Below, one piece after another: positions 34,706 through 50,209 of a stretch of 64,000 bases of DNA (the first letter of the stretch is position 1; every line of letters starts with the position of its first letter). The notes beneath the pieces were generated by a model. The model saw only the letters and a list, made by a program, of their open reading frames with translations. It did no database searches and had not been told where the DNA came from. The stretch is from an uncultured Pseudomonadales bacterium (GTDB lineage: Bacteria > Pseudomonadota > Gammaproteobacteria > Pseudomonadales > UBA7434): the NCBI GenBank assembly GCA_943788835.1, contig CALSRU010000010.1, forward strand, positions 1 through 64,000, written 5' to 3'. Made by a program: the position numbers and the translations under genes.

Positions 34706-34729
34706 AGCATCATTCCTTGATGGCTGAGC

Positions 34730-34746
34730 GGGTAATATACAGTTGC
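34730..34746 (-). promoter_or_regulatory. LexA-like half-site upstream of intI
   Basis: On the minus strand, CTGTATATTA lies about 30 bases before the intI start. It fits the left half of the LexA box (CTGTATATATATACAG), but the CAG that should close it is three bases too far away. Integron integrases are often SOS-controlled, so this may be a degenerate operator. Confidence 0.25.
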
Positions 34747-34819
34747 ATGAAAAGCCCTGCAACTGCTGATGCCGCTGATTGGCTTAGGCAACAAGTTTGC
34801 GCCACTCCCCTCACACCTC

Positions 34820-35122
34820 ATGTAGTAACCCGATACTACACTTCAAATAACGATGTGGGCTATGACGCAATAATTGCGTCTCAACTGAACTGTATTTACC
34901 GTTTTTCAACGACAGCCCGCGCAAGCAATTGAATTGACTTAACGACTTTTGCGACAGTGAGAAAAAAACAGCGACACGCGCCGTATTATTTTTTACGGCG
35001 AAATGCGACATGATTTGCTAAGCCATTGAAAAGCGTGTAACTTTATTTTTTTAATTAATGAATTAACGTCGCAAAAGCCGAGCTTTAAAAAGCGGCAGCT
35101 GTCGTTGAATAAACTGTTATGC
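34820..35122. repeat. attI-side repeat element, copy A
   Basis: A stretch of about 300 bases between intI and the first cassette that recurs in diverged form at 49426-49736. It opens with a small hairpin (TGTAGTA/TACTACA at 34821-34840), contains a 110-base block (34901-35011) alignable without gaps at about 62% identity to the other copy, and ends at the GTTATGC core. Minus-strand frames in both copies share spaced residues (MS-F, NN, FN-LR, SL-NG). It probably contains attI, but the element itself may be an interspersed repeat. An inverted pair CGACTTTTGCGAC / GTCGCAAAAGCCG (34943 and 35069) is also present. Confidence 0.7.
35116..35122 (+). other. attI core recombination site
   Basis: GTTATGC, matching the GTTRRRY-type core at which cassettes insert. 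It marks the left boundary of the first cassette, about 410 bases upstream of the intI start codon, on the correct strand relative to the cassettes. Confidence 0.7.
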
Positions 35123-35136
35123 TTCTTAATCGCACT

Positions 35137-35502
35137 ATGAATAATAAAATTGAATCTGTACTAAGCTTGGCTTCCGGAGTATCACTATTAATAATTTGGT
35201 ACGTGTACCTATTTGTCGCAATACCTGAAAATACAACGCTACTATCGGCAGCATCGAATGGAATTGAATATGCGCTTTCTCCTGAGAAAAATGAGAATTA
35301 CCTATTTTTCTGGTTCACACTTATTTCTATCTGCGTATCTTTTTATTGTTGCTTCGCGTTTTTGTTTAAAGCCAGCAACTTATCAACAATGGTGCTAGTC
35401 GCAGCTCATACTGCGGCTAGTTTATTTGTCTATGATTTTGGAGTGGTTATTGCCACGGCGCTGCCATTACTTTATGTTACTAATCACCTGCCAAAAGCAT
35501 AA
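35137..35502 (+). CDS. cassette 1: four-helix membrane protein
   Basis: A hypothetical inner-membrane protein of about 121 residues with four hydrophobic segments (roughly residues 10-30, 50-70, 78-95 and 98-115). No known family recognised. An in-frame ATG at 35119 overlaps the recombination core; the ATG at 35137 is preferred because the upstream residues are encoded by the att site. The stop codon overlaps the R'' box of attC1. As the first cassette it is nearest to any promoter in the intI/attI region and most likely to be expressed. Confidence 0.7.
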   Translation: MNNKIESVLSLASGVSLLIIWYVYLFVAIPENTTLLSAASNGIEYALSPEKNENYLFFWFTLISICVSFYCCFAFLFKASNLSTMVLVAAHTAASLFVYDFGVVIATALPLLYVTNHLPKA

Positions 35503-35571
35503 CAAAACGGTCAATGGCGCCTGCGGCTGGACAAAGCACTGCGTGCTTTGTCCATTACCTTGGCGTTAGTG
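35497..35571 (+). repeat. attC1 (75 bp)
   Basis: Starts with GCATAAC (R'') and ends with GTTAGTG (R'). Between them an imperfect inverted repeat centres on GGACAAAGCACTGCGTGC...TTTGTCC. Shares its central block with attC5. Confidence 0.88.
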
Positions 35572-35575
35572 TGTT

Positions 35576-36040
35576 ATGAGAGAATTTTTAGTAATTTTAG
35601 CCCTTATGGTATCTAGCTTTACTTTCGCTGAGGAAGTAGAAGTTCGATTTGGAAAGCTTAAAGTTTCAGAGAGAATTGGAGCCGATGGTTATCGTTTCGA
35701 GTTTATGGAGGAAACTAAAAGAGCTCCTTTACTAACTCTTGAAGAAGGTGGCGTTTACGGAATTGAATATCGCGCTCCTGAAAACTATGAATATACGGTT
35801 CAAGTTAAAGCGATAATCCCTCTTGGTGTAACTGAGACAGGAGGAGATTTGGTTTCAACTAAAAAAAACACTGAAAATACTGTCATGGTATTCAAATCTA
35901 GATCAGTTAAAGGCACAAGTGTAGAGCCCTTCCTTTTTACAAAAGGAGATCCGCCGGGCACTTATACACTTGAGGTTACAATAAATAATAATGTGGTTAA
36001 AAAACTTAGTTATCAGGCTTATGTTCCAACCACACACTAA
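35576..36040 (+). CDS. cassette 2: secreted protein of unknown function
   Basis: A 154-residue protein with a clear signal peptide (cleavage after FTFAEE region, about residue 18). The mature part is rich in beta-strand-forming residues and has GDPPGTYTLEV near the end, like immunoglobulin-like periplasmic domains. I do not assign a family. The ATG lies only 5 bases after the attC1 core, with no ribosome binding site beyond the cassette junction. Confidence 0.7.
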   Translation: MREFLVILALMVSSFTFAEEVEVRFGKLKVSERIGADGYRFEFMEETKRAPLLTLEEGGVYGIEYRAPENYEYTVQVKAIIPLGVTETGGDLVSTKKNTENTVMVFKSRSVKGTSVEPFLFTKGDPPGTYTLEVTINNNVVKKLSYQAYVPTTH

Positions 36041-36140
36041 CCAGGGCAGGCACGCGACCTCCGGCAATTGGTCACCTTTTGTGCGGTGTGTCTGCACAAA
36101 AGTCGCCAATCACCTCCGGCTCGTGCTGCCGGCGTTAGCA
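36035..36140 (+). repeat. attC2 (106 bp)
   Basis: CACTAAC at the left and GTTAGCA at the right enclose a long imperfect stem with arms around GTCACCTTTTGTGC and GCACAAAAGTCGCC. The same arm sequence recurs in attC8, so the two sites belong to one subfamily. Confidence 0.85.
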
Positions 36141-36146
36141 GTACTT

Positions 36147-36492
36147 ATGAAATATCGCATATTAAAAGGTTTGGAGTCCCACCTAGTTAAAGAAAGGGTT
36201 CCAACAGAATATAAAAATTTAGCTGTAAGTTGTGAGTCGCAACTTGGCGAGTTATGCACGTTGATTATTTTCCCACATAATCGAAAAGATATTGTGAAAA
36301 GCTCCTTGGTTGAGAAAGCTTTAAATAAATTGGGAGACCTCACCCGACGCAAGTTTAGTTGTTGTTGGTGGCTGCTTTAGCTCAGAGTCAGTTGATATTT
36401 TAAATTTTAAAAATGCAATATTCCTGTCGTTGTCTGAGTTTTATTGGACAGCCGCTGCCAGTAATAAATTACAAGGCGAACCAAAGAGTTAA
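36147..36492 (+). pseudogene. cassette 3: hypothetical protein gene with +1 frameshift
   Basis: The first frame codes 77 residues (MKYRILKGLES...) and stops at 36380. In the next phase the coding pattern continues without a break as WETSPDASLVVVGGCFSSES... to a TAA at 36492, just before attC3. The full span, 346 bases, is one base longer than a multiple of three. The shift lies near 36325-36345, in an AAATAAATTGGG stretch. Read together the product would be about 114 residues of unknown function. Either a decayed cassette gene or a one-base sequence error. Confidence 0.65.
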
Positions 36493-36503
36493 GTGGCAGA
36501 TAC

Positions 36504-36604
36504 TGCTAACAAGAATTTAAAGCGGGACTGCTAACAGTTTGCTCGGTTTCGCTCCGCTACACATTTTAGCAAACTATTATCAGCCCCTTATTTGGGCGTT
36601 ATAT
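36504..36604 (+). repeat. attC3 (101 bp)
   Basis: TGCTAAC at the left and GTTATAT at the right; inner arms GCTAACAGTTTGCT and AGCAAACTATTATCAGC pair imperfectly around a CGCTCCG-containing loop. Confidence 0.82.
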
Positions 36605-37611
36605 GCTAAAAGGAAGTATCGTGCCAAGACAGATAGAAAAAGGCGAATTAGCCCTCTACAAGTACAATAAAGTTCGATATTCCTTTGTTGAATTAGATGC
36701 TGGTGAACAGCAAGTTCTTACCAGTGACCCTTGGTCGTTTCTAAGTTCACATCTTCAAGTTCGCCTAAACAATACTCGCGGCAATAATAAAACTAAGATT
36801 GAACGTGCTATATATTATGCCGGATTAGCTGAAGACTTTTATAGAGCTGCTGAAGTTAGCCCTCTACCTGCAAAAGGTGCACTTTTGTATTACGGAATGC
36901 TTGACTTGGTTAAATGTTATTTAAGCCTCAATGATGTTCCATTGGAAACAACTCATGAACATCACGGTCTCGTACTGCCGATTGGTAAAGAACAGACTGT
37001 CGAAGTTAAAACCAAGATGAAAGAGGCGGTAAATATCTTTTATGAATTTACCCGCTTACTCGGAAAACCAATAACTGCTAGCCATGAGGTAAGATTCGAA
37101 CAAGCTATTTCACATGTCCCTGAAGTACATAGCATATACACAATGCTTGGGACATTTACCCAAAAGAAAGCTTTTGCCTATTGATATTGAATTTCAGGTA
37201 AATGAAGCTCATGACAAGCTTTTTACAGAAGTTATTTATCAAAAAGAGCAAGAAGCAAAAGTTGATGTAGCCAAGTTCTTTAAAGGTGAGCGGAAGAAAT
37301 ACTTCAAAGAAGGTTTTCCTAGAGATAATAAAACCGTGTATCGGGCGACGAGGAGAAAATCATACACTTCAGATAATATTCATCGTATATATAAGAATAT
37401 TTTATCGGAATACAGGAAGCTAGATATAATCCCAATCCTAACTAAACAAGGTTATAGATATTATGCCGATTTGCGACCCGGCGACTTACCGCAATTATCT
37501 TATAGCTTACTGGCTATGTTTTATCTTGGGAGTGCTGCTAGATATCGCCCACTAGAAGTAAAATCATTGCTTGAAGGCGAATTAAGGCCTTTGGTTAGTG
37601 ACGTTTGTTAG
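36603..37611 (+). pseudogene. cassette 4: YaaC-like protein gene with +1 frameshift
   Basis: Two overlapping frames form one gene. The first (193 residues, from the ATG at 36603) contains SPLPAKGALLYYGMLDLVK, a pattern typical of YaaC-like proteins; the second continues as KLLPIDIEFQVNEAHDKLF and ends with SYSLLAMFYLGSAARYRP, the usual C-terminus. The total of 1009 bases is one more than a multiple of three. The shift falls near the A-rich CCCAAAAGAAAGC at about 37158-37172. The intact protein would be about 335 residues. The function of YaaC-like proteins is unknown. The ATG overlaps the attC3 core. Confidence 0.7.
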
Positions 37612-37695
37612 CCTTTCACCCTAGGCAATTTCTCTATCAAATGGTGTCACTGACTACTAACAAAGAGTGTGTAATACCATTTGCGGCGATATAGA

Positions 37696-37767
37696 ATTTA
37701 ACAAGCGCAATCACACGGAACAAATTTCCCCTGCGCTCCAATTTGTCCGGTGTTGCGGGCGTTATGC
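37696..37767 (+). repeat. attC4 (72 bp)
   Basis: ATTTAAC (exact RYYYAAC) and GTTATGC bound an imperfect stem with arms CGGAACAAATT and AATTTGTCCG. The 85 bases between the cassette 4 stop and this site contain a further small inverted pair, AAATGGT/ACCATTT. Confidence 0.9.
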
Positions 37768-37779
37768 ATCAAAAATAAA

Positions 37780-38070
37780 ATGGATATTTTAATCGGAACA
37801 TTATTTGGCTCATTCTTTCTGTGTGTAATTTTCTACGCATATGAAGCTATGTCCGTATTGATTTGGGTATCTAAGCAAGGTTGCGGCTTAGGGTTCTCTG
37901 CAAGTTCGGCACCTGGGTGGGCAATTAAGCGTTACTTAACTTGGTGCGCTGAAACCAACACAGAAGTGAATGCTAGTCGGCTACAAAGGTATCGTCGTGC
38001 AACCAAAGTTATCGCTATAGGTGCTGTTTTTTTAGTGTCAGCATTTATACTAATTGCAATCGGGGCGTAA
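37780..38070 (+). CDS. cassette 5: small membrane protein
   Basis: A 96-residue protein with two hydrophobic segments, one at the N-terminus (residues 3-25) and one at the C-terminus (about 76-96), joined by a basic cytoplasmic or periplasmic loop containing RLQRYRRATK. Function unknown. The ATG at 37780 lies 13 bases after the attC4 core. A frame extending upstream to 37750 crosses the att site and is not used. Confidence 0.7.
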   Translation: MDILIGTLFGSFFLCVIFYAYEAMSVLIWVSKQGCGLGFSASSAPGWAIKRYLTWCAETNTEVNASRLQRYRRATKVIAIGAVFLVSAFILIAIGA

Positions 38071-38073
38071 AAT

Positions 38074-38151
38074 GCATAACAAAACGGGCAATGATCGCCC
38101 TTCGGGCTGGACAAAGCACTGCGTGCTTCGCCCATTCCCTCAACGTTATAA
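38074..38151 (+). repeat. attC5 (78 bp)
   Basis: GCATAAC and GTTATAA bound the site. The central GGACAAAGCACTGCGTGCTT is shared with attC1. Confidence 0.88.
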
Positions 38152-38154
38152 CTC

Positions 38155-38553
38155 ATGGAGGTATTGCCAATTAAGAAGCTTCTGCTAGGAATCGTTATTT
38201 TTGTTTTCGCTATTCCTATTGTGGTTGTAGTGTCATGGCAACTTTATACCATTCATGACTCAGTTTACGAGGGTAGTGCTTACGGCTTCAGTATTGGTGC
38301 AACCAAAAGAGAAACTTATTCCGCTATATCTCGGACTAGTGCACATTCGATCTGGCTAATCTACCCAGAAAGGACAAGCCCAGGCATTGAAATATTAAGG
38401 GCTCACGAGATTACCTTTGATAAACTAGAAAAAGTAAATCAATGGGAATTAACCTTTGGGTCAAAGAGTTTGCTCAATAGCATAAGGTTAGTCTTCCAAG
38501 ACAATAAGCTAGTCAATATTTATCGTCATAGGCAGGCCGTTGAATTACCGTAA
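38155..38553 (+). CDS. cassette 6: membrane-anchored hypothetical protein
   Basis: A 132-residue protein with one N-terminal transmembrane anchor (residues 7-28) and a soluble C-terminal domain of about 100 residues, ending NIYRHRQAVELP. No family recognised. The ATG at 38155 is only 4 bases from the core, and GGAGG lies inside its first codons; a non-ATG start a few codons later (TTG at 38164 or ATT at 38170) is possible. Confidence 0.65.
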   Translation: MEVLPIKKLLLGIVIFVFAIPIVVVVSWQLYTIHDSVYEGSAYGFSIGATKRETYSAISRTSAHSIWLIYPERTSPGIEILRAHEITFDKLEKVNQWELTFGSKSLLNSIRLVFQDNKLVNIYRHRQAVELP

Positions 38554-38558
38554 AAAAG

Positions 38559-38637
38559 TTATAACAAAGCAAGGCAAAATCGTTCCGCTACGCTCCACTG
38601 GACGCGCTAACGCGCGCCTTTGCTTGCGGCGTTAGCT
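38559..38637 (+). repeat. attC6 (79 bp)
   Basis: TTATAAC and GTTAGCT bound an imperfect palindrome with arms AAGCAAGGC and GCCTTTGCTT. Confidence 0.85.
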
Positions 38638-38657
38638 GCAAAAGGAATGTCGAACAT

Positions 38658-39222
38658 ATGAATAGAATTTTAACAATCGCTTGCTTTACGTTTCTGGTTG
38701 GCTGCGCAAATAACTCCCAAGTCACCAATTACGAAAGTAAAGGGTAATCTTGCGGCCACTAATCCACTTGTGTGCGTCAGTTCTACCTCTGTAGGCCCAG
38801 AAAGCACGGCAGCTGATATTGCAGCTGGTGCAAAAGATTGCGCCGAGTCGTCTAAATACAATGAAGCAGCAGAACTCATCATGGTAGCAAGTGCCTATGC
38901 GTACTTTGATACACAAAGGGTAACTGACAAAACCGCACATGGTGCGCTGAATGCACTTTTCGCAAAAGAGTTCGGCTCTCTACCTGAGGCTCAGAGAAAT
39001 GAGCTATTTTCTAGCATCGACGCACTAGATAATAATCAGCCAAGGAAAAGCGAAATATGCACGTACCTTATTTCAGCACCTACGCCGTCCTATTTTCCCA
39101 ACTACATGATTGCGCACGGCATGGGGGCATTTACAGGCTCTTCCAAAGAGCCATTGATCAAGGATTATAGTGCTACTGAGGCATGGTCAAAATCCATGGT
39201 GTTCGTCAAGTGCAGCAGCTAA
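38658..39222 (+). pseudogene. cassette 7: lipoprotein gene with +1 frameshift
   Basis: The ATG at 38658 starts a lipoprotein signal, MNRILTIACFTFLVGC, but the frame stops after 29 codons at a TAA in AAAGGGTAAT. In the next phase the coding sequence runs on as NLAATNPLVCVSSTS... to 39222. Removing one G from the GGG at about 38746-38748 restores a continuous protein of about 187 residues. The mature part has several cysteines (VCVS, KDCAES, EICTY, FVKCSS). Function unknown. The stop overlaps the R'' box of attC7. Confidence 0.72.
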
Positions 39223-39293
39223 CAAGTAAAGGCACAGGACGTCAAAACCGCCGCTTCGCTCTGGTTTTGCCGCCCGTGCTTTAGGCGTTAAGT
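39217..39293 (+). repeat. attC7 (77 bp)
   Basis: AGCTAAC and GTTAAGT bound a stem with arms GTCAAAACCG and TGGTTTTGCCG around a CGCTTCGCTC loop. Confidence 0.85.
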
Positions 39294-39316
39294 ACTAAGT
39301 ATCACATGGAGATAAT

Positions 39317-40294
39317 TTGAACCTATTTATAGATACAAACGTCTTTTTATCCTTCTTTCATCTTTCAAATGATGATCTAGAAGAGATTCATAAATTGGCG
39401 GTTCTAATTGATAAAGGCGATGTTACGTTGTGGCTCACAGAGCAAGTGAAAGATGAGTTTAAACGTAATAGAGAATCAAAAATATCTGATGCCGTTAAAA
39501 AGCTAAAAGAACAAAAATCAAAGCCGCAATTTCCTCAAATTTGCAAGGATTACGAAGAGTACCCACAAATTAGGGAGTTGCAGAAGGATTTTGATAAGAA
39601 GATTTCCTCCCTTATAAAAAAAGTAAATGATGATGTGGCCGCCAGAACTCTTAAGGCAGATCAAAAGATTGATGAACTGTTTCAAAAAGCCAAGCTTATC
39701 GAGACTACACAAGAGCTTGTTGATAAAGCGCGATTAAGAATGGATGTCAGAAACCCACCGGGAAAAGATGGGTCTTTAGGCGACGCAATTAACTGGGAAG
39801 CATTACTTGAGTCTGTGGCTGACGATGAGAAACTGTACCTTGTTGCGGATGATAAGGATTATTACTCCGTGCTTGATGATAGCAAGCTTAAAGATTTCCT
39901 GAGCGATGAGTGGCAAGAAACAAAAAACGAAGAGGTGCAGTTTTATCGTCGGCTTTCTCAGTTCTTCAAAGAACACTACCCAGATATAAAACTGGCTAGT
40001 GAGCTTGAAAAAGAATTAGCTATACGGGCATTGGTAAATAGCGGTAATTTCGCGAGTACGCATAGTGCTATTTCAAAGCTTGAAAAATATGCTGAGTTTA
40101 ATAAATCACAAGCGAATGAATTGGCCCAGATATGTTTTACTAACGATCAAGTGGGTTGGATTTTGAGTGATCAAGATGTTTACGATTTTTATAAAGTGCT
40201 TCTAGATAATCACGGTGAAATATTAGAAGAAGAATTAAAGAATAAGTTAATCGAAAAACTGAAAGAAGCTGAGCCAGAGGAAGATGATGCTTAA
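39317..40294 (+). CDS. cassette 8: PIN-domain protein
   Basis: A 325-residue protein with an N-terminal PIN-like nuclease domain. It begins NLFIDTNVFLSFF (acidic residue D6), has a glutamate in the EQVKDEF helix (E42 or E48), then D156 in GDAINWEALL and further aspartates in VADDKDYYS (179-181), the usual acidic set for metal-dependent RNase activity. The middle (55-140) is lysine/glutamate-rich coiled coil; the C-terminal 110 residues are helical and acidic. The start is a TTG at 39317 with GGAGAT before it. PIN proteins of this size with a DUF4935-like layout act in RNA cleavage and some phage-defence systems. No antitoxin partner lies in the cassette. Confidence 0.8.
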   Translation: MNLFIDTNVFLSFFHLSNDDLEEIHKLAVLIDKGDVTLWLTEQVKDEFKRNRESKISDAVKKLKEQKSKPQFPQICKDYEEYPQIRELQKDFDKKISSLIKKVNDDVAARTLKADQKIDELFQKAKLIETTQELVDKARLRMDVRNPPGKDGSLGDAINWEALLESVADDEKLYLVADDKDYYSVLDDSKLKDFLSDEWQETKNEEVQFYRRLSQFFKEHYPDIKLASELEKELAIRALVNSGNFASTHSAISKLEKYAEFNKSQANELAQICFTNDQVGWILSDQDVYDFYKVLLDNHGEILEEELKNKLIEKLKEAEPEEDDA

Positions 40295-40386
40295 CAAGTC
40301 AAAGCACCCAGACTTGGTAAAGCTGTCACCTTTTTTGTTCCAAAAAAGTCGCCAACTTTACCAAGCCGGTGTTTGAGGCGTTAGGT
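40289..40386 (+). repeat. attC8 (98 bp)
   Basis: GCTTAAC and GTTAGGT are exact matches to the RYYYAAC and GTTRRRY consensus. The arms ACTTGGTAAAG and CTTTACCAAG pair perfectly; the inner GTCACCTTTT...AAAAGTCGCC pair is shared with attC2. Confidence 0.93.
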
Positions 40387-40399
40387 GCTAAGGAGGTAT

Positions 40400-41221
40400 A
40401 TGCATAACACCGACATTAAGCATTGCATCGCAACGGCACCCGACGGTGTTCGCATCGCATACCAGGTTTCTGGCCAAGGGCCGGCATTGGTCTTTTGCCA
40501 TGCGATGGCAAACGATCACAGAATGTATGACCAACATCGTGATCTGTTTTCTGAATCACACACATTAATCACATTCGATCAGCGTGGCTCTGGCTACTCG
40601 GATCACCCTCCCTTTGAAGAAGGCCCTACGAGTCTTTATACCGTCGATAAATTCGGCGATGATCTTAAAGCGGTCTTGGATCACCTTGGTATTAACCGAG
40701 CTACTATTCTTGGTTTTTCGATGGGTGCAGTCGCCGCGCTCTCATTTTCTACACGGTGGCCAGATCGAGTAGAACGTCTTGTTTTGGCTTCTGCGATGGC
40801 ATCACGCTTGCCTCAGCCTATTATTGATCGCGCGCGCTTGGTCGAACAAATGTTGGATGATAAGGGTCTGGAAGAAACCTATGATTTCTACTTTTCGGGA
40901 ACGCTATTTGATGGACTTTTAGAAGAGGGGAAATTTCATGAACTCATTGCACTCTTCCGAGAAAAAGCAACGCCCCAAGGCTTTAAAGGTTGCTTTCGTG
41001 TCACGATTGACCGTCCATCGCTGGTCGATGAATTAACATTAATTCAATGCCCTACCCTTATTTTGGTAGGAGAAAACGATAAGCATTACCTTGCTGAAGC
41101 AGAGCTGTTGGAACGAACTATTCCAGATGCCAAAAAAGTTGTTATGACTGGCGTGGGACATCCTATGTCCATTCAAGATCCCAATGCGTTTGAAGTAGAG
41201 ATTATGGCATTCATCTCATGA
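40400..41221 (+). CDS. cassette 9: alpha/beta hydrolase
   Basis: A 273-residue cytoplasmic alpha/beta hydrolase. The oxyanion side is FCHAMANDHRMYD, the nucleophile elbow GFSMGA (serine about residue 107), the acid in VGENDKHY and the histidine in GVGHPMS. The layout resembles 3-oxoadipate enol-lactonases and related carboxyl-ester hydrolases, but the substrate is unknown. The start at 40400 is preceded by an excellent AAGGAGG, unusual in this array, so it can be translated well on any transcript. Confidence 0.85.
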   Translation: MHNTDIKHCIATAPDGVRIAYQVSGQGPALVFCHAMANDHRMYDQHRDLFSESHTLITFDQRGSGYSDHPPFEEGPTSLYTVDKFGDDLKAVLDHLGINRATILGFSMGAVAALSFSTRWPDRVERLVLASAMASRLPQPIIDRARLVEQMLDDKGLEETYDFYFSGTLFDGLLEEGKFHELIALFREKATPQGFKGCFRVTIDRPSLVDELTLIQCPTLILVGENDKHYLAEAELLERTIPDAKKVVMTGVGHPMSIQDPNAFEVEIMAFIS

Positions 41222-41237
41222 GCTTAGTCGGGTTTTT

Positions 41238-41309
41238 ACCTAACAAGCGCAGGCAGCAAGACGTAGTTTTCGCTGCGCTCGAAACACGCGCGTGCCGCCG
41301 GCGTTGCAA
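41238..41309 (+). repeat. attC9 (72 bp)
   Basis: ACCTAAC is an exact R'' box; the right core GTTGCAA is divergent. The stem includes GCAGGCAGCA and the GCTGCGCTC loop region. Poor right core may slow recombination of the next cassette. Confidence 0.7.
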
Positions 41310-41323
41310 ATCTTAGAACTCAT

Positions 41324-41635
41324 ATGAAAAAAATATATACCCATACGAACAGAGTCTTGATCATGTCAGCAAAAAACTTGCTGCAACGCGAAGGAATAGA
41401 AAGCTTTGTCAAAAACGATCACAGTAATACATCAGGTGGCGAGTTTGGCATAGCCAATATGTTTTTGGAGCTATGGATACACAATGATATCGACTATGAC
41501 AAAGCTTCAGATATTATTGCGCGTAAGATCGAGAACCCAGAAATAAAAGAATCTTGGATTTGCTCTGCCTGTAAAGAAAAAAACGATGGAAGTTTCGACT
41601 TTTGTTGGCAATGCCAAGCAGAAAGCAATTTGTAA
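41324..41635 (+). CDS. cassette 10: DUF2007 protein with zinc ribbon
   Basis: A 103-residue protein. The first 70 residues match the DUF2007 (putative signal-transducing) fold: KKIYTHTNRVLIMSAKNLLQREGI, then ELWIHNDIDYDKASDII. The C-terminus adds a zinc ribbon, CSAC...CWQC. The combination is common in free-standing bacterial genes, but the function is not known. The ATG lies 15 bases after the attC9 core. Confidence 0.8.
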   Translation: MKKIYTHTNRVLIMSAKNLLQREGIESFVKNDHSNTSGGEFGIANMFLELWIHNDIDYDKASDIIARKIENPEIKESWICSACKEKNDGSFDFCWQCQAESNL

Positions 41636-41789
41636 CCAGCTGGGTATTACACTCGGCTTAAAATCAGCTGAGTAAAACTCGCTACGCAGTGCTCCGTTCG
41701 CCCATGCCAATCTTAGAGGCCAGCTATCAAGGCGCGCCATCGCGAAATCATTCTGGTAACATTCAGCCAAATATGAGGCAGCGTTAGCA
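41630..41789 (+). repeat. attC10 (about 160 bp)
   Basis: TTGTAAC at the left, GTTAGCA at the right. The site is longer than the others and its stem is interrupted; the right half has GAGGCAGC before the core. Extent is less certain than for the shorter sites. Confidence 0.65.
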
Positions 41790-41819
41790 AAGCCTCTTTA
41801 CTAGCCGCTAGGAGTCAAG

Positions 41820-42191
41820 ATGCGCGAGCAACTCAACAATGAAGAGCTCATCCTGCTGTACGACGTAGTAACCGGTAGCGTCAACGCTCAGTTTGAGCTT
41901 TGGATAACCATCACGTTCGCCGTGATCATCGCTTCATACCTCGCAGGACACCGTCTCGCGAAATCACTTCAATACGTTATCGCCATCCTCTACACGTCTG
42001 TGTCTGTGCTCCTGTATTTGATGCTTGTAGCAGCTGTGCAGCTCTCAGCTCAATTTGATGCTATTTTGGCTAGTACAAACCTTTTTAGCGCAATAGCCCT
42101 ACTGCGTACTTCGGTGTGGATTCTTGGAACCATCGCGACTATCGTATTTATTTTTAAAGGCCACAAAGTCGATGCCTCCAAGAGCGACTAA
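41820..42191 (+). CDS. cassette 11: multi-helix membrane protein
   Basis: A 123-residue inner-membrane protein with three or four hydrophobic segments (about residues 27-45, 50-72, 85-105 and 108-118 weak). TAGGAGTC precedes the ATG at proper spacing. Its helix pattern with ASYLAGHRLAKSLQY resembles the protein at 46227-46610 outside the array (AAYMVGGQLSKTQFS), so the two are probably relatives. Function unknown. Confidence 0.75.
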   Translation: MREQLNNEELILLYDVVTGSVNAQFELWITITFAVIIASYLAGHRLAKSLQYVIAILYTSVSVLLYLMLVAAVQLSAQFDAILASTNLFSAIALLRTSVWILGTIATIVFIFKGHKVDASKSD

Positions 42192-42263
42192 ATATAATTT
42201 CAGCTGCTCGCTTGAGGGCTTATTCGTTAGGGCTTATTTGTCAGGGATTTCTCTGAAAAAATT

Positions 42264-42355
42264 GCGCTAAATCAATTGCTGCGCCCAAGGCGTACGCTAC
42301 GCTATGACCCTTGGCGAATGTCTCGCTTAAGCAGGTGTTGAACCCTACGTTATTC
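42264..42355 (+). repeat. attC11, degenerate
   Basis: An imperfect hairpin (GCGCCCAAGG against CCCTTGGCG) followed by GTTATTC at 42349-42355. No clear R'' box is seen. Probably the decayed right end of the cassette array. Confidence 0.4.
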
Positions 42356-42368
42356 GTCGGCCATAAAG

Positions 42369-42626
42369 GTGAGTGTCATGATTACATTGTCGCAATTAAC
42401 GCAACTACTAGGCTGGGCTGCCGTCATTAATATTGCCTACCTATTGGTAGCTACACTGGTTGTCGTATTTATGAATGGAGCCATCACCTCCATTCATAGC
42501 AAAGCTTTCAAGGTAAAAAAAGAAGAATTGAATTCAAAATATTTTGATTTTTTGGGCAATTACAAAATTGCATCACTGGTTTTTTTTGTGGCGCCCTACC
42601 TCGCCTTAAAAATCATGGGGCAGTAA
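42369..42626 (+). CDS. small two-helix membrane protein (DUF6868-like)
   Basis: An 85-residue protein starting at GTG 42369 (or ATG 42378), with helices at about residues 12-35 and 62-82 and the central IHSKAFKVKKEELNSKYFDFLGNYKIASLV. This is a conserved small membrane protein type in marine gammaproteobacteria, which I recall as DUF6868. It follows the degenerate attC11 by 13 bases but no attC follows it, so it is either the last cassette or the first flanking gene. Confidence 0.7.
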   Translation: MSVMITLSQLTQLLGWAAVINIAYLLVATLVVVFMNGAITSIHSKAFKVKKEELNSKYFDFLGNYKIASLVFFVAPYLALKIMGQ

Positions 42627-42938
42627 CTATTTCATCAATGCATTAGTTTTCGCCAACAACTTAGCTAAATTTATGACAAGTATTCTGCATTACCCAAGAT
42701 GTTGAAAGGCCTTGCCAATCACACCTTGCTATAGCTTAGCCATTTAATGCGCTCTAGACGCTATAGACGCTATAGAAACATGCATCATGTGACTGGCTGA
42801 GTTCGAGCTTATTGCTCGGCACTGGGCAAGTGCCAAACCGCAATACATTAAGCGGTCATTTTTGATGATCGACTTGATGGGGCCTGCTCCATTGACCCAC
42901 TCGTCTTCGCTGTTCAATGGGTGCAGCCGACCAACCGG
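42627..42938. other. gap at the right end of the integron
   Basis: This 312-bp stretch has no gene and no recognisable attC site. It contains a 9-bp direct repeat, GACGCTATA, twice in a row near 42757, and a short palindromic TTGCTCGGCACTGGGCAAGTGCC region near 42811. Confidence 0.4.
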
Positions 42939-43412
42939 CTAGCAGCCTGTGTTGACCATTGAGATAGTGTGTGGGGCAGCTATAGAACCCCCTGACGTGA
43001 CAGGTTCAACATACTCTGCATAACAATTCGTTTTACCCGGAATAGACCACCTCACTGAGTTGCCGCCATGAGCCGTCACGTCCCAATCAGAGCCATCAAC
43101 GAGATCGTCAATTTCATCATCACGACTTAACACTCAGGCATCAGGATAGCCATTAAAGTGCCTTACGTTTTGCCCTGCAGCCGCAAAATAGGTAATTGTC
43201 CAACCTGTGGAGCCGATACAATCGGGCGTTAATTTACAACTGTATTGCATCATCGTTACGGTAGAGCGCAGCGTCCCCATATGACTTTGCAGCCTTGCTG
43301 TATATGCGTCTGCACTTAGATTAATGAACCTCGGCAGGGCCATGGCCGAAAGAATACCTAGCAAGACGATAACAGCCACAAGCTCAACTAATGTGAAGCC
43401 ATTTTTTTTCAT
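42939..43412 (-). pseudogene. type IV (MSHA-like) pilin gene interrupted by a stop codon
   Basis: The minus-strand frame begins MKKNGFTLVELVAVIVLLGIL, a type IV prepilin with the G/F cleavage site and E5. After FNGYPDA an in-frame TGA (43134-43136) interrupts it, and the same frame continues as VLSRDDEIDDLVDGSDWDV... for a further 65 codons to 42939. The two halves together (about 157 residues) have the length and C-terminal cysteine of MSHA-type pilins. A single nonsense change explains the break. A related intact gene lies at 54392-54931. Confidence 0.8.
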
Positions 43413-43606
43413 AAAACCACCCTGTAACCAACATGACCCCTGCCGTTAAGGTAGAAATAATGACACGCATCGATATATGATGTATGAGCAGAATTGGAGC
43501 AAGCTAACAAAAAAATGAAGTGTTATCTAATTATGAAAGCATCCAATACAACAGCTGGCCGACTTTGTTTCCGGCCAAGCACTGCAACACTAAAAAAGGT
43601 CTAGTT

Positions 43607-44260
43607 ATGTTTGTCGGTCACTATGCAGCCAGCCTTGCTTTAAAAAGAGTCGAAAAAAAAGCATCGCTGGGGCTGTTGTTTCTTGGCGCACAGTTCGTGG
43701 ATATTCTTTTTTTTCCTTTGGTGCTGCTAGGCATCGAGCGAATCAATATGATTGAGAACTATACTCAATCAACTCATTTTGAACTGGCATATATGCCGTA
43801 CACGCACAGCCTGCTGGCTGCATTTTTGTGCGCCGGGGGTATCTATTTAACGTTTCGCGTGTTGTTTAAAACCACGCAGTCCATTGCGCTGGTTATGGGC
43901 CTGGCCGTGCTGTCACACTGGTTTTTCGACTGGTTTGTGCATACGCCGGATTTACCGCTCTGGAGCGACGAGTCAAGAAAGTTGGGCCTAGGATTGTGGA
44001 ATAATGCACTGGCGACGTATGCATTAGAAGCAGCCCTACTGGGCGCCGGCCTGTGGCTCTACCTGCGTTCAACAACAGCAAACACGCCCTCGGGTAAATA
44101 TGGCATGGGCCTTTTTGTCATTGTTCTACTTTTAATTAACGCCGTTAATATATTTGGTCCAGCCACCAGCGAGAGTGAGGCGTCTTTAGCAATTTCAGCG
44201 CTTGTCATGTATTTTGCCTTTGCCGCCACGGCTCATTGGCTTGATACCAAACGTTGCTGA
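43607..44260 (+). CDS. multi-pass membrane protein (DUF457/metal-dependent hydrolase-like)
   Basis: A 217-residue integral membrane protein. It opens MFVGHYAASLALKR and has YTHSLLAA and LSHWFFDWFVHTPD, the histidine/aspartate motifs of the DUF457-type membrane family, whose members are sometimes called membrane-bound metal-dependent hydrolases. Six hydrophobic segments are visible. The ATG at 43607 with AAAAAGGT before it is preferred over the frame start at 43520. Function not established. Confidence 0.75.
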   Translation: MFVGHYAASLALKRVEKKASLGLLFLGAQFVDILFFPLVLLGIERINMIENYTQSTHFELAYMPYTHSLLAAFLCAGGIYLTFRVLFKTTQSIALVMGLAVLSHWFFDWFVHTPDLPLWSDESRKLGLGLWNNALATYALEAALLGAGLWLYLRSTTANTPSGKYGMGLFVIVLLLINAVNIFGPATSESEASLAISALVMYFAFAATAHWLDTKRC

Positions 44261-44318
44261 ACCAACGCTATATTATGCGGTGGCATGCAACAAAATCATC
44301 TGCAGTGCGAAACACAGC

Positions 44319-44666
44319 ATGAGCCTAGAGCAATACCATAAACTCATTTTAAGGCTGCTTGCTGCCACCCTTAGCACCGGCGGATTTTGTGTAGCGTACG
44401 GCTTGCTAAGCCCTGAACCGTCGGCTCGGGTGATGCTAACCGGCGTGGTAATAATCCCTGCCCTTTCCGGCTTACTAAGTATGCTTAACGGCCTATGTGC
44501 ATTACAGCACTCAGCCATTTTTATCTGGCGAGGCCGGAACTTAGCGGTTTTTAAATCTCACGCGACGGGCTTGGCGCCATTTAAAGTCCTCACCGGACTT
44601 TTTTGGGCTGTAGGAATTTTTTTGCTTTTCATTGCAGGCAAAATAACCACGATCATTGCAAGCTAA
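44319..44666 (+). CDS. small membrane protein
   Basis: A 115-residue protein with three hydrophobic segments (about residues 10-30, 38-60 and 88-112). The ATG at 44319 starts MSLEQYHKLILRLL; the longer frame from 44202 overlaps the preceding gene and is not used. No family recognised. The following 249 bases up to the reductase gene hold an 83-codon frame that looks non-coding. Confidence 0.6.
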   Translation: MSLEQYHKLILRLLAATLSTGGFCVAYGLLSPEPSARVMLTGVVIIPALSGLLSMLNGLCALQHSAIFIWRGRNLAVFKSHATGLAPFKVLTGLFWAVGIFLLFIAGKITTIIAS

Positions 44667-44915
44667 TGAGCCATTGTTTGCATTGAGCGTCTTTTTTAAA
44701 AAGATTTATTTGCTAAGCCCAATACGGCATAATTGGCAAGAAATAGACCGTTATCTAGTCGACTTTAAACGCCACGAAATGCTTAGGCCGGTCAGGTCAT
44801 TAATTACGCTTACAACGTGGCGTTGCACTCTAGTATTAGATTTTAATGTTCTAACCTTAATCATGCATAATGCTTATGCCGTGGTCACAACACCCGTCGT
44901 TAAATAGGATTTGTT

Positions 44916-46073
44916 ATGTTGAACTTTAGTTTTCACAACCCAACCAGTATTCATTTTGGTACGGGGCAGATTGCCAAATTAGATAAAGAAATTCCTAAAG
45001 ATGCCAATGTACTAATCATTTATGGCGGCGGCTCGATTAAAAAAAACGGCATTTTTGATCAAGTCGTTGAGGCCTTAGGCACACGGCAATGGTATGAGTT
45101 TTCCGGCATAGAGCCCAACCCAAGTTACGATACTGTCATCAAGTCACTACCAGTAATTGCCGACAACAACGTAGATTATTTGCTCGCTGTGGGTGGCGGC
45201 TCGGTGGTTGATGGCGCTAAATTTATTGCTGCTGCGGCTGAGTTTGACGGCGCCGAACCGTGGGACATCATTGCCAAGCGAGCCCGAATAACCAAGGCGC
45301 TGCCGTTAGGTGTGGTACTCACATTACCTGCCACGGGCTCTGAGTCTAACAGTAACGGCGTAGTCACTCGCCACGGCAACAAGTTACCGTTCGGCAATAA
45401 ATTATTGCGCCCCCAATTCGCAGTGCTTGACCCTCAAGTCACCTTGACCCTTTCGGATCGTCAAATTGGTAACGGCATTGTTGATGCGTTTGTCCACGTA
45501 ATGGAGCAATACCTCACCTACAATGTTAACGGCAAAGTACAAGATAGGTTTTCTGAGGGCCTGTTATTAACGCTGATTGAAGAGGGCCCTAAAGCGTTGG
45601 ATAACCCTACCAAGGATGACCTAGAGGTGCGAGCGAATGCGATGTGGTCAGCTACTTTGGCCCTTAATGGCTTAATCGGAGCAGGCGTTCCACAAGACTG
45701 GACTGCCCATATGATTGGCCATGAACTGACCGGTTTATACAATATTGATCATGCTAGAACGCTGTCGATTACTCTACCGGCTGTGATGAAAGTTCGCCGC
45801 GAAGCCAAACGAGATAAATTATTGCAGTATGCCGAGCGTGTTTGGCATGTGGTTGATGGCACAGAAGATCAACGCATTGATACGGCCATTGAATTGACCG
45901 AACGTTTTTTTAAACAAATGAACTTACCCACGCGACTCAGCGAGATAGATCTAGACGCATCGCATATCGAAACGATTTTAGAAAAGCTGCAACAGCATGG
46001 CATGGTTGCGCTAGGCGAACAACGCGAAGTGACCCCTGCAATCAGTCGAGTCATTTTAGAAACCGCTCTGTAA
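44916..46073 (+). CDS. yqhD: iron-containing alcohol dehydrogenase, YqhD-like aldehyde reductase
   Basis: A 385-residue NADPH-dependent aldehyde reductase/alcohol dehydrogenase. The opening NFSFHNPTSIHFGTGQI and the GGGS cofactor loop (AVGGGSVVDGAKF) are diagnostic. Metal ligands: aspartate in NGIVDAFVHVMEQY and histidines in DWTAHMIGHELTGLYNIDHA. YqhD removes reactive aldehydes after lipid peroxidation. It is a single-gene unit. Confidence 0.92.
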   Translation: MLNFSFHNPTSIHFGTGQIAKLDKEIPKDANVLIIYGGGSIKKNGIFDQVVEALGTRQWYEFSGIEPNPSYDTVIKSLPVIADNNVDYLLAVGGGSVVDGAKFIAAAAEFDGAEPWDIIAKRARITKALPLGVVLTLPATGSESNSNGVVTRHGNKLPFGNKLLRPQFAVLDPQVTLTLSDRQIGNGIVDAFVHVMEQYLTYNVNGKVQDRFSEGLLLTLIEEGPKALDNPTKDDLEVRANAMWSATLALNGLIGAGVPQDWTAHMIGHELTGLYNIDHARTLSITLPAVMKVRREAKRDKLLQYAERVWHVVDGTEDQRIDTAIELTERFFKQMNLPTRLSEIDLDASHIETILEKLQQHGMVALGEQREVTPAISRVILETAL

Positions 46074-46110
46074 CAGCCGCCGTTGCCCAGTCGCACAATG
46101 CATACCAGCA

Positions 46111-46149
46111 CAGCACATAGACACAGCACATAGACACAGCACATAGAAA
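46111..46149 (+). repeat. 13-bp tandem repeat, three copies
   Basis: CAGCACATAGACA at 46111-46123 and 46124-46136, with a third copy ending in AAA at 46137-46149. It lies between the reductase stop and the next gene and ends about 80 bases before that gene's ATG. Confidence 0.9.
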
Positions 46150-46226
46150 TAGTGCCGACATGACACTTCAAATAAATGATTGTTGTGACACCTATCATTT
46201 TTATTGTCGGAAATACGGAAGAAGCA

Positions 46227-46610
46227 ATGACGCCCTACGAACTGCTTGACCTCGCCCAAAGTAGCTACTCAACCTCAGCGGCTTATATCTCTATTTTTAT
46301 AGCGCTTCTCAGTGCCTACCTTGTTGCGGCCTACATGGTTGGCGGACAACTCAGTAAAACGCAATTTTCATTAGCCAACAGCCTTTACTTGGTCATACAA
46401 ACGCTCACTATTGTTACCATCTATAATTTTAATAGCGCCGCAAGAGCTTGGAGCCAGCTCGGCCGCTCAACTTTGCCAAACGCTAGCGGCAATGCAAACA
46501 GCGCCTACCTACCCGAAACAGTTGCGCTCGTGCTTATGACCACGATGCTACTCAGCGTATGGTTTATGTGGCAATCTCGGCGCCTGAAAAACACCTTACC
46601 AAATGAATAA
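46227..46610 (+). CDS. small membrane protein related to cassette 11
   Basis: A 127-residue membrane protein with helices at about residues 15-38, 48-68 and 92-112. The segment SAYLVAAYMVGGQLSKTQFSLANSLY resembles the matching part of the cassette 11 protein. The ATG at 46227 is chosen over the longer frame from 46176 that includes AT-rich leader. Function unknown. Confidence 0.65.
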   Translation: MTPYELLDLAQSSYSTSAAYISIFIALLSAYLVAAYMVGGQLSKTQFSLANSLYLVIQTLTIVTIYNFNSAARAWSQLGRSTLPNASGNANSAYLPETVALVLMTTMLLSVWFMWQSRRLKNTLPNE

Positions 46611-46834
46611 GCGTATAGCTGAGCTTGAGAGCAGCGCAAAAAAAACCACACCCTAGCACCCCGCCCTTGGCAGTACCGCTATCTAGATTTTTTATAAGCA
46701 AAAAGGCAATAACCATTGGCAGCAGACCCGGAGTCCGAGCCAATTGCTTGAGCGTGCCTTCCGCCATAAGATAGAATCAACTAAGAACCGCCCACCGCAG
46801 TACGGCGTGATAATTTTTAATCAAAGGTGTAAAT

Positions 46835-47164
46835 ATGGGTTACTGGTACTTAACAATAGCAATTGGCGCTGAAGTGTTGGCAACACTTGCCCTCAAAGCC
46901 TCTGACGGTTTTTCTCATGCGACATCGAGCGTTATTTGTGTAGTGGGTTATGCCGCAGCCTTTTATTTTCTGTCTTTGGTTCTTAAAACTATTCCCGTAG
47001 GTATCGCTTATGCTATTTGGGCAGGCATGGGCATTGTTTTAATTGCCTCCATCAGCGCAGTGGTTTATCAACAGATACCCGACTTACCGGCGATCATTGG
47101 CATGGGCTTAATTTTAACCGGTGTGTTGGTGATTAATGTTTTCTCAAAAACAGTGGTTCATTAA
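46835..47164 (+). CDS. small multidrug resistance (SMR) family efflux protein
   Basis: A 109-residue four-helix transporter of the SMR family (EmrE/QacE type), which exports cationic compounds in exchange for protons. It starts GYWYLTIAIGAEVLATLALK, with the essential glutamate at residue 13, and has the GIAYAIWAGMGIV helix. Related qac genes travel in integron cassettes, but no attC site borders this one. AAAGGTGT precedes the ATG. Confidence 0.9.
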   Translation: MGYWYLTIAIGAEVLATLALKASDGFSHATSSVICVVGYAAAFYFLSLVLKTIPVGIAYAIWAGMGIVLIASISAVVYQQIPDLPAIIGMGLILTGVLVINVFSKTVVH

Positions 47165-47397
47165 AAACAGCACACGCCACTCCCTCGCGCTCAAGATCGC
47201 CGTGTGAGGGATGGCAAGATATGATGAAACGACCAAAGTGCACGCCCAGCAGTTGAAAAATAAACTAGAGCATTAATGACCTTTAATCAGTTGTGTCTGC
47301 CATGAGCACGAGCACCGTCATCAAGCAAAAGATCGGCGCTTACCGATTGAATACGTTAACCCTATAAACGTTAACCCTATAAAAGTAAGGGCAGCTT

Positions 47398-49332
47398 ATG
47401 AAACTCATCCTCTTAACACTGTGCACGTTACTGCTAACCATGGGCTGTACCGACAAAAGTAAGTCACCGCCCGTATCCCAAGCGCCGTCTGCAAACGCTG
47501 CCACCGCAGACATGGTTTACTTAAACGGTACAATCATCACCGTCAATGACGACCAACCTTCAGCGCAAGCCGTGGCCATTAAAAACGGAAAGATCATTTA
47601 CGTGGGTGATGACAGTGGTGCGAAGCGCTTTGTAGGTCCTACTACCGAACAAGTAGACCTTGACAATCGCACCATGGTGCCGGGTTTTGTTGATGCACAT
47701 GGCCATGTTGTTAGTGCCGGTATACAGGCAGCCAGCGCCAACCTATTGCCACTGCCCGACGGCCCAGTCAATAGCTTTGCTGAACTGCTCGATACCCTTA
47801 AAGCTTGGCAAACCAGTGACACAGGCCAAGCATTCATTGCCAATACGGGCTGGATATTGGGCTTTGGCTTTGATGATTCGCAACTAAGCGAGCAGGTATT
47901 TCCGACCGCGGATGAATTAGATAGCGTGAGCACCGAGAGGCCCGTACTGATTATTCATCAGTCTGCTCACTTTGGCGTATTTAATAGAAAAGCGCTCGCC
48001 ATCGCAGGCATAGACGATTGCCAAAAAATAATTCCTGGCGGAAAAATTCGCTGCCAGCCCGATGGAAAGACGCCTAATGGCGTACTAGAAGAAAATGCAT
48101 TTTTTGCTGCGCTGGGTTCCTTTCAATCGGGTATTGACGATGACTACAACATTGAACTTTTTAATCAGGGCATGCAAAGTTTTGCTCGTTTTGGTTACAC
48201 AACCGCGCAAGAAGGTAGAGCATTCGACTCAACGGTAATGGTTGCCGCGGCTCGAGCAAGCCTTGGCCCGCTACCGATAGACGTTGCGTTATATGTTGAC
48301 TACACCGCTAAAAACAAACTCCCCGATTCGCCCTACTACACGGGCAATAGTTACCAAGGCATTGGCTATAACAACGGTTTGCGCATAGCGGGGCTTAAAT
48401 TAACCCTCGACGGCTCACCGCAAGGTAAAACCGCTTGGCTGACACAACCTTATCATGTGCCTCCCGAGGGCGAATCAAACGACTATGCAGGTTATCCAGC
48501 AATGAGCGTTGAGCAGGTAGACGCCGAAATTATGGATGCCTTTAAAAACAACCGCCAGATTCTTGCCCACTGTAACGGTGATGCGGCCATTGACCTCTAT
48601 ATAAAAGCCATCGCCAAAGCCAGTCAACAATACGGTACTGGCGATCGCAGAGTCGTGTTGATTCACGGCCAAACGTTGCGTAAGGATCAAATTGCCCAAT
48701 TAAAAGCGCTAAATATTATTCCTTCGTTATTTCCTATGCATACCTTTTATTGGGGCGAATGGCATAAAACGTCAGTGCTAGGCCCTGACAGAGCCGCCTA
48801 TATTTCACCCACACGTGATGTATTGGACGCCGGCTTAATTTTCACTTCACACCACGATGCACCCGTTGCACTACCCGATTCTATGCGTGTTTTGTCGGCT
48901 ACCGTCACGCGAGTCACCCGCACCGGTGAAGTGCTTGGGCCCGACCAAAGAGTGACGCCTTATGAGGGCTTAAAGGCCATTACACTTTGGCCTGCTTATC
49001 AGCACTTTGAAGAAAATCAGAAGGGCTCAATTGAAGTGGGAAAACAAGCCGACTTTGTTATCTTATCGGCCAACCCGCTTACAGTAGATCCACTAACTAT
49101 TGCTGACATAAAAATACTAGAAACCATTAATAATGGCCAAACCGTCTTTAGACTCAAAGCCGCTAATGATGCGCCGGCGGTAGTCGGCTCAGATCAAGAT
49201 GTGCATGGGTGTATTGGTTCGGCCGGCTATCAATGGTGCGAAAAACTGGCGCAATGCGTGCGCCCTTGGGAGCTTACAAAAATGCAAGGTCAGGAAAACA
49301 GTCCTGAAGCCCTAGCGGCGCTTTGTGGGTAG
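47398..49332 (+). CDS. amidohydrolase family lipoprotein (YtcJ-like)
   Basis: A 644-residue metal-dependent hydrolase. The lipoprotein signal ends in LLTMGC. The first metal-binding motif is PGFVDAHGHV, later ILAHCNGDAAIDLYIKA and TSHHDAPVALPDSMR match the YtcJ-like amidohydrolase-3 family. A cysteine-containing tail (HGCIGSAGYQWCEKLAQC) of about 50 residues follows the usual end, which is unusual. The substrate is unknown. The start lies after AGGGCAGCTT. Confidence 0.87.
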   Translation: MKLILLTLCTLLLTMGCTDKSKSPPVSQAPSANAATADMVYLNGTIITVNDDQPSAQAVAIKNGKIIYVGDDSGAKRFVGPTTEQVDLDNRTMVPGFVDAHGHVVSAGIQAASANLLPLPDGPVNSFAELLDTLKAWQTSDTGQAFIANTGWILGFGFDDSQLSEQVFPTADELDSVSTERPVLIIHQSAHFGVFNRKALAIAGIDDCQKIIPGGKIRCQPDGKTPNGVLEENAFFAALGSFQSGIDDDYNIELFNQGMQSFARFGYTTAQEGRAFDSTVMVAAARASLGPLPIDVALYVDYTAKNKLPDSPYYTGNSYQGIGYNNGLRIAGLKLTLDGSPQGKTAWLTQPYHVPPEGESNDYAGYPAMSVEQVDAEIMDAFKNNRQILAHCNGDAAIDLYIKAIAKASQQYGTGDRRVVLIHGQTLRKDQIAQLKALNIIPSLFPMHTFYWGEWHKTSVLGPDRAAYISPTRDVLDAGLIFTSHHDAPVALPDSMRVLSATVTRVTRTGEVLGPDQRVTPYEGLKAITLWPAYQHFEENQKGSIEVGKQADFVILSANPLTVDPLTIADIKILETINNGQTVFRLKAANDAPAVVGSDQDVHGCIGSAGYQWCEKLAQCVRPWELTKMQGQENSPEALAALCG

Positions 49333-49424
49333 CGACGCCCTCTAACAATTGCATCACACACATAGGCTCTGCCACCCTTCGCGATCACCGCGCGCGACAT
49401 CTTAGTAACCGCATATAGTAAACG

Positions 49425-49450
49425 TATGTAGTAACTGCAGTTACTACATA
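49425..49450. repeat. 26-bp perfect palindrome
   Basis: Thirteen-base arms, TATGTAGTAACTG and CAGTTACTACATA, meet with no loop. It opens repeat copy B at the same place where copy A has a smaller GTAGTA/TACTAC hairpin. It could be a protein-binding site or a mobile-element end. Confidence 0.9.
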
Positions 49451-49736
49451 TTGCCTTTTACGCTTGTTATACCAACCCAAGCATGACGGGCCAAACAAAT
49501 TACCAATGCTCCGTTTCCCAACGACACGGCGCGCAAGCTATTGAAACAATGGTGAGCCTTATGAGGCACAAATAAATCATCAAAATCACGTGTCGCATTA
49601 TTTGTAAAACTAAAAGGTGACATGGTTTGATAAATATTGAAAAAGTATGTACCTTTCTTTTCATGCATTAGAAGCGTCGTCAGAATATAAAGCGCCTCTT
49701 AACAACGATAGCGGTAGTTGAATCAACTATTAGGCT
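49426..49736. repeat. diverged repeat element, copy B (attI-like)
   Basis: Second copy of the element found between intI and the first cassette. The best block, CCGTTT..CAACGACA..GCGCGCAAGC.ATTGAA, matches copy A at 29 of 35 positions; 49513-49623 aligns without gaps to 34901-35011. It ends TTGAATCAACTATTAGGCTT against TTGAATAAACTGTTATGCTT, so the recombination core is altered (ATTAGGC for GTTATGC). No integrase remnant is adjacent. Confidence 0.7.
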
Positions 49737-49765
49737 TGAAAGCCCCCATAGTCAGGAGTTAACAC

Positions 49766-50107: not shown

Positions 50108-50209
50108 GATTGCTGGATTAATAAATTAACAGTTTAATCATGTGGGGCAGCCCCGCCTGGTTTAGCTTATATTTACGCCTACTGAGTGAGCAGTAGAAAA
50201 GGATTAAAA

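Follow-up and report, generated by a model that had tools for sequence, protein, structure and literature searches.

The window analysed here is a stretch of 64,000 nucleotides from the genome of an uncultured Pseudomonadales bacterium (a draft of 2.76 Mb in 17 contigs, labelled G000). It contains an integron, consisting of the integrase gene intI, a cassette array with attC sites (array A) and, between the two, a repeated unit that is the subject of this work (copy A, the putative attachment site attI). Three further copies were found in the genome: B stands in the window beside a histidine-rich gene, and C and D stand outside it at the head of arrays C and D. The coordinates are collected in Table 1.

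Table 1. Features of the integron locus and of the copies of the unit (window positions unless a contig or locus label is given)
Feature	Position	Strand	Remark
intI, integron integrase	33692..34762	-	356 aa as listed from TTG; probable ATG 34705-34703
Palindrome ATGTAGTA-N6-TACTACA	34820..34840	.	precedes attI A; C is preceded by the same motif
attI unit A	34898..35122	+	about 225 bp, left arm to recombination core; common to C, D and, weakly, B
Left arm TTCAACGACAGCC	34905..34917	-	inverse of right arm, 1 mismatch in 13; shuffle p about 0
Right arm AGCTGTCGTTGAA	35097..35109	+	inverse of left arm
Recombination core GTTA	35116..35119	+	A, C and D diverge directly behind
Cassette array A	35120..41309	+	nine attC; attC covariance model, E from 1.1e-14 to 0.0091
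Array A, attC 1-5	35497-35571, 36035-36140, 36504-36604, 37696-37767, 38074-38151		
Array A, attC 6-9	38559-38637, 39217-39293, 40289-40386, 41238-41309		
Palindrome upstream of copy B	49425..49450	.	perfect, 26 bases (26/26 inverse match)
Copy B, old attI unit	49507..49732	+	core ATTA at 49729-49732; orthologue in G007
Histidine-rich gene	49766..50107	+	113 aa; follows copy B; no family in Pfam or NCBIfam
Copy C	G000:C10:186857-187081 (L009)		93% identical to A over the unit; same contig, 152 kb from A
Array C	L009 7501-12856		six attC; covariance model
Copy D	G000:C4:138804-139031 (L010)	minus	77% identical to A; other contig
Array D	L010 5209-4614		two attC; covariance model

IntI scored 412 bits on the NCBIfam model TIGR02249 (integrase_gron; cut-off 265) and also matched the Pfam phage integrase family. 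Searching the genome with IntI gave one integron integrase. The two other matches were XerD and XerC by curated models, and their scores on the integron integrase model (131 and 117.5 bits) were far under the cut-off. A tRNA-Phe gene adjoins intI of array A (33442-33517).

In copy A the left arm TTCAACGACAGCC is followed, near the other end, by the inverse arm AGCTGTCGTTGAA and then by TAAACTGTTA, and the copies diverge right after GTTA. A sequence model built from the four copies found all of them in the genome, the weakest at E 1.2e-48, and two weak extra matches (one at E 0.038, on the opposite strand within D, and one at E 0.066); it should be mentioned that the four copies are its training set and that 150 of 928 candidates were scored. 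A, C and D differ from each other by 7-23%. In all three, the first cassette of an attC array follows immediately on a GTT core. Only A is placed between intI and the first cassette; C has a remnant of intI, and D has none. Judging from where A, C and D diverge and by analogy with known attI sites, IntI would be expected to cleave at GTTA.

The attC covariance model was trained on arrays A, C and D, and 12 of their 17 attC sites (six of the nine in array A) were training sequences. Over the whole genome it reported 13 sites in three clusters (6, 5 and 2), each of which follows A, C or D; it scored 150 of 1500 candidates, hence the recovery of 13 of 17. A home-made attC finder in a loose setting gave 16 hits in the array region, as against a shuffle mean of 10.6; it was too noisy, and the covariance model was used instead. 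With six and two attC sites and no integron integrase match nearby, arrays C and D are clusters of attC sites lacking an integron integrase (CALINs). The first gene of array D encodes a DRT8 reverse transcriptase (PADLOC Drt8, E 1.7e-164) and is followed by a MAPEG gene; each has its own attC. Array C contains a PDC-S06 candidate defence gene (E 1.4e-172) and a GrpB-family gene. Candidate defence genes are thus present in the intI-less arrays, with DRT8 as the first cassette at D (L010 5211-6785, G000:C4) and PDC-S06 within array C (L009 10439-12790, G000:C10).

The comparison of A with C is informative as to the history of the latter. At C, 26 residues match the beginning of the reading frame of IntI (E 1.5e-4), and unrelated sequence follows; about 20 of these residues precede the probable ATG of intI. 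The similarity between A and C extends past the left arm back to the first codons of intI. The unit itself shows 15 differences in 224 positions (93.3% identity), whereas the adjoining intI leader shows 54 in 187 (71%; Fisher p 1.9e-9). At C, intI seems to have been lost and the leader to have diverged, while the attI unit stayed, which fits either use of the site or homogenisation with A. Because of the position of both at the head of an array, the intI remnant and the retained attI unit at C, C and D look like true second attI sites, as judged from the sequences. A tRNA-Arg gene lies about 1.1 kb upstream of attI C (L009 5695-5771).

Related sites were searched for in other genomes. Plain blastn with A matched only its own genome among 145 relatives, and no match was obtained in plasmids and phages. 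The exact 3' pattern occurred at 12 places in GTDB genomes and six in viral contigs, and in none of them did the four-copy profile span more than 53 bases; a viral stretch with a profile match was dismissed by eye as chance. The sequence model, run on 293 genomes at E up to 0.01, matched eight: the genome itself, the sister species G007 (the orthologue of B), G003 (one site, E 3.9e-7), G037 (three weak sites) and, weakly, G060, G081, G148 and G254. The matches in the last four may be due to chance (alignments were seen for G060 and G148). The G003 site stands before a DsbA-like gene, beyond which comes an attC-like site (E 0.011), and on another contig of G003 a matching attI end (92% over 51 bp) stands beside a shortened intI. 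This gene (L106 1128-1886, G003:C381) matched Pfam in the catalytic domain only, and it is adjoined by the attI-like end and an attC. In G037 there was no IntI match at E 1e-60. Two of its copies (C54 and C92) have 138 bp in common at 88%, and the sequence behind these two is cassette-like by eye; the attC model reported no site there.

The end motif GTCGTTGAATNANCTGTTA, with at most one mismatch, was found at 27 places in 18 of 390 genomes of the order, 12 of the places being exact. Seven are in G000 (three), G003 (one) and G037 (three), and the remaining 20 were newly examined. By the attC model, which reported 41 sites in 269 kb (28 stretches) of genomes other than its own, attC sites are present at 11 of the 20 places; all 26 of them lie downstream of the motif and on the same strand. 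The examined stretch contains intI at two of the 11 (G282 and G323_C6). At the other nine (G323_C4, G152_C2, G174_C7, G340, G093_C46, G093_C103, G217_C59, G053 and G148) no intI was found in the 5-12 kb examined. Other families of the order thus also have related sites that precede attC arrays with no integrase nearby. In G323 and G093 the attI beside intI belongs to the same class as the remote sites.

Two genomes bear traces of exchange between such sites. In the intI-side attI of G093, the left side matches C103 (87.5% over 168 bp up to the core), and the right side, which is the cassette, matches C46 (87.9% over 290 bp, from 13 bases before the motif). Further upstream, C46 and C103 are 66% identical over 246 bp. 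In G152, 94 of 94 bases are identical from GCTGTTG onward, and the two left halves in front, otherwise unrelated, have one further base in common. Insertion of one cassette at two attI sites would produce junctions of this kind, and they may be taken as an indirect sign of it.

Taken together, we consider it probable that the repeated unit is an integron attachment site (attI) with its leader, and that one IntI belongs to several attI sites: three arrays, two of them (C and D) headed by a paralogous attI without intI, with action in trans as the most likely mode. C would have arisen by duplication of the intI-attI end and subsequent loss of intI. The IntI made at A would most likely serve C and D in trans, each site thereby capturing its own first cassette, and recombination at C and D would presumably still take place. 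The first cassette might be expressed from a promoter in or near the unit.

Several observations weigh against this explanation. A sigma-70 scan of unit A found no promoter. Arrays A, C and D of this genome have no cassette in common, and trans use is therefore not shown in this genome. When the motif was reversed as a control, 22 places were obtained as against 27; the end motif alone is not enriched, and by itself it proves nothing. At nine of the 20 newly examined places there is no attC. The sequence ends within 90 bases at two of these (G152_C8 and G037_C148) and within about 1 kb at a third (G069); it continues for 6.7 kb or more at the others (G305, G217_C66, G274, G176, G192 and G368), and G274, G176, G192 and G368 were set aside as chance on reading of the sequence. 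The intI-side attI of G152 and of G174 falls into a sequence class other than that of the remote sites, and both G152 sites are at contig ends. Furthermore, an array without the unit elsewhere in the genome could be missed, because the attC model was trained on these very arrays and scored only part of the candidates; arrays with a different type of attC could be overlooked likewise.

The strongest alternative is that C and D are frozen remnants, left after the duplication or acquisition of whole integrons: both would have lost intI, and their arrays would now be inert and unserved by the remaining IntI. The intI remnant at C and the lack of a shared cassette agree with this, and loss of intI is one of the origins given for CALINs in the account of PMC8618304. 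However, the attI unit at C has been kept far better than the useless intI leader beside it, although homogenisation with A could explain this, and in G093 and G152 one cassette stands behind two attI sites. We regard frozen remnants as unlikely.

The inverted arms raise another alternative, namely that the unit is a mobile element bounded by them (like a miniature inverted-repeat transposable element, or a hairpin moved by IntI) which carries the attI end. In A, C and D the right arm has an inverse match (one or two mismatches in 13) some 195 bases upstream of the core motif; the similarity of D to A starts at the left arm and is absent upstream of it; and G037 has three or more copies. On the other hand, the similarity of C runs past the left arm to the start of intI, and the stretch shared by C54 and C92 of G037 begins elsewhere than at the arm. 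Moreover, the inverted arm was significant (shuffle p up to 0.05) in just nine of the 26 copies tested, at varying distances: A, C, D, both G003 sites, G037_C54, G282, G323_C4 and G174_C7. It was not significant in the other 17, B included, nor in any of four chance places. In six remote copies of one family (f19) the best inverted match is at -237 to -251; these are related sequences, mostly non-significant alone. A mobile element seems improbable. In the attI explanation, the arms are candidate binding sites for the integrase.

The evidence on copy B bears on a third alternative, in which the unit is a leader or promoter (a structured RNA or the target of a regulator) and its place at the head of arrays reflects expression rather than recombination. 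The original prediction concerned the pair of A and B: the sequence separating intI from cassette 1 was said to recur at 49426-49736. This was confirmed, with the recurrence at about 49426-49738: the best 35-base block has 29 matches (82.9%) and the best ungapped block of 110 bases has 69 (62.7%; 34908 vs 49520), both in line with the predicted figures. The runner-up place in the window matches the block of A at 50 of 110 bases and the reverse strand at no more than 49; the mean is 27.8, with sd 4.7. With A as query, nhmmer found B at E = 1.5e-15 in 137 kb of the same genome. Plain blastn with B over the whole genome did not give A among the 11 matches listed, so the link between A and B needs more sensitive searches such as nhmmer or the sequence model. 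The homology of the pair thus stands, but the two belong to a family of four, and its better copies (C and D) are found beyond the window.

B is the poorest of the four genome copies. As had been predicted, it has no adjoining integrase, and its core is altered, ATTA being found where A has GTTA; the covariance model reported no attC behind it at E up to 0.5. This means that the GTT core and the cassette with attC expected of an attI are both missing. The idea of a second attI was right, but B is the least attI-like copy, and the functional-looking second sites are C and D. An orthologue of B is present at the same place in G007 and carries the identical change in the core. The most plausible reading of B is that of an old attI, now dead and perhaps retained as a leader for the histidine-rich gene. 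About 81 bases behind this gene (50120-50200) are absent at the same place in the sister species; the stretch holds TTAACAGTTTAATC, which is close to the inverse of the attI end.

That B has been kept without attC speaks for a leader: its unit shows 16 differences in 222 positions between the two species, as against 75 in 558 for the pooled third codon positions of the neighbouring genes (p 0.013). This contrast is mixed, the third-position difference being 10.8% for the amidohydrolase gene and 23.7% for the histidine-rich gene. The palindrome upstream of the copies also agrees with a leader. It has a longer-spaced form at B (two bases shorter in G007) and a weaker form at D. The pattern GTAGTA-N6-TACTAC occurs at eight places in the genome at up to two mismatches, while the reversed pattern does not occur; just A and C of the eight stand at a unit. 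It is perhaps a regulator site, and the suggestion of an SOS box is an idea only. The other places are G000:C10:54209, C2:4332, C4:142721, C4:745312, C4:745528 and C4:108219, some of which adjoin PEP-CTERM-like or pilin-like genes by eye.

The hint in the original prediction at an RNA or a conserved peptide finds little in its favour. The whole of A folds better than its shuffles (z -3.9), but pieces of A and C that lack the left arm show no such excess (z 1.14 and 0.74). Two-sided changes were observed in two of 30 predicted pairs among the four copies compared, and Rfam gave no family on the unit at E up to 1. A conserved structured RNA was rejected on these grounds. The minus-strand peptide was likewise rejected, since A, C and D have stops in all minus-strand frames; in the sister species the frame of B is mostly open, but its start codon is lost and it is shifted near the end. 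Apart from the scant covariation, a pure leader does not account for the copies breaking exactly at GTTA and for three of the four preceding attC arrays. We hold it to be about as improbable as the mobile element; the unit may be both leader and attI. A generic interspersed repeat, also suggested earlier, is not supported, because the genome search gave four strong copies in the whole 2.76 Mb and three of them head the three attC clusters found.

An assembly or binning artefact would fit the fragmented draft and the fact that contigs of several relatives end within about 1 kb of the sites; it is very improbable, as A, C and D have different neighbours, are embedded in contigs of 219 and 879 kb and are 7-23% apart, and B has its orthologue in place in G007.

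The comparison with the sister species gave a further observation on intI. From 33900, intI and its leader (about 33700-34856) show no differences from G007:C2 (L110) in four 300-base bins (957 positions), and four differences in 33600-33899. More distant bins differ by 0 to 10.7%, and the whole 6 kb are 96.1% identical. Recent exchange of intI between the two genomes is possible. The other G007:C2 stretch (L049) reaches the contig end just upstream of intI, at the expected start of attI.

The relations between the sites might be of a wider kind. In members of this order, the chromosome might have several integrase-free landing sites with a shared end motif, all served by one IntI in trans, the site spreading perhaps as an inverted-arm unit; we put this forward tentatively and would not yet favour it. 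If it were true, several cassettes would hold the first, best-expressed position simultaneously, and integrase-less arrays would be working branches of a distributed integron and not debris. Clusters of attC sites without an integrase are common, and they are usually ascribed to off-target insertion, loss of intI or rearrangement. If many CALINs were headed by a paralogous attI, they would be extra platforms of a live system, and the picture of a single attI would need widening.

The locus resembles a chromosomal integron in its intI, its attI ending in GTTA and the attC arrays directly behind. Standard accounts, as excerpted, describe one attI per integron (PMC9024848, PMC3607928), whereas three array-heading copies accompany one integron integrase here. 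Arrays C and D are like CALINs in having attC and no intI. The origins published for these, in the text consulted of PMC8618304, are off-target insertion, loss of intI and rearrangement; arrays C and D differ in beginning with a paralogue of the intI-side attI. Detection of attI by the standard finder is described as limited to class 1 (PMC9024848), so attI heads of CALINs outside it would be missed. The sites share with attG sites the placing of cassettes away from intI. According to the relevant part of PMC12901181, attG sites diverge from classical att sites, but the remote sites found here are homologous to the intI-side attI. CALINs away from the main locus are reported for about 50% of Xanthomonas genomes and discussed together with attG (PMC12444791, in part). 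Extra attI sequence away from intI is also known from cassettes of class 1 and class 2 integrons, in the form of truncated attI sites (PMC12901181). There, as far as that text goes, a piece of attI replaces the attC behind a gene, while here the full unit heads an array. We found no report of several chromosomal paralogous attI per integrase in the open-licence literature searched, most subscription papers being outside this scope. The arrangement of several attI sites with one integron integrase is real and informative and has one partial precedent, a single reported Shewanella prophage CALIN with its own attI (PMC9892861). In that case, as in the present one, an attI starts the CALIN, and the same record also has a complete integron; the sites described here differ in being dispersed, diverged chromosomal copies, present in several families.

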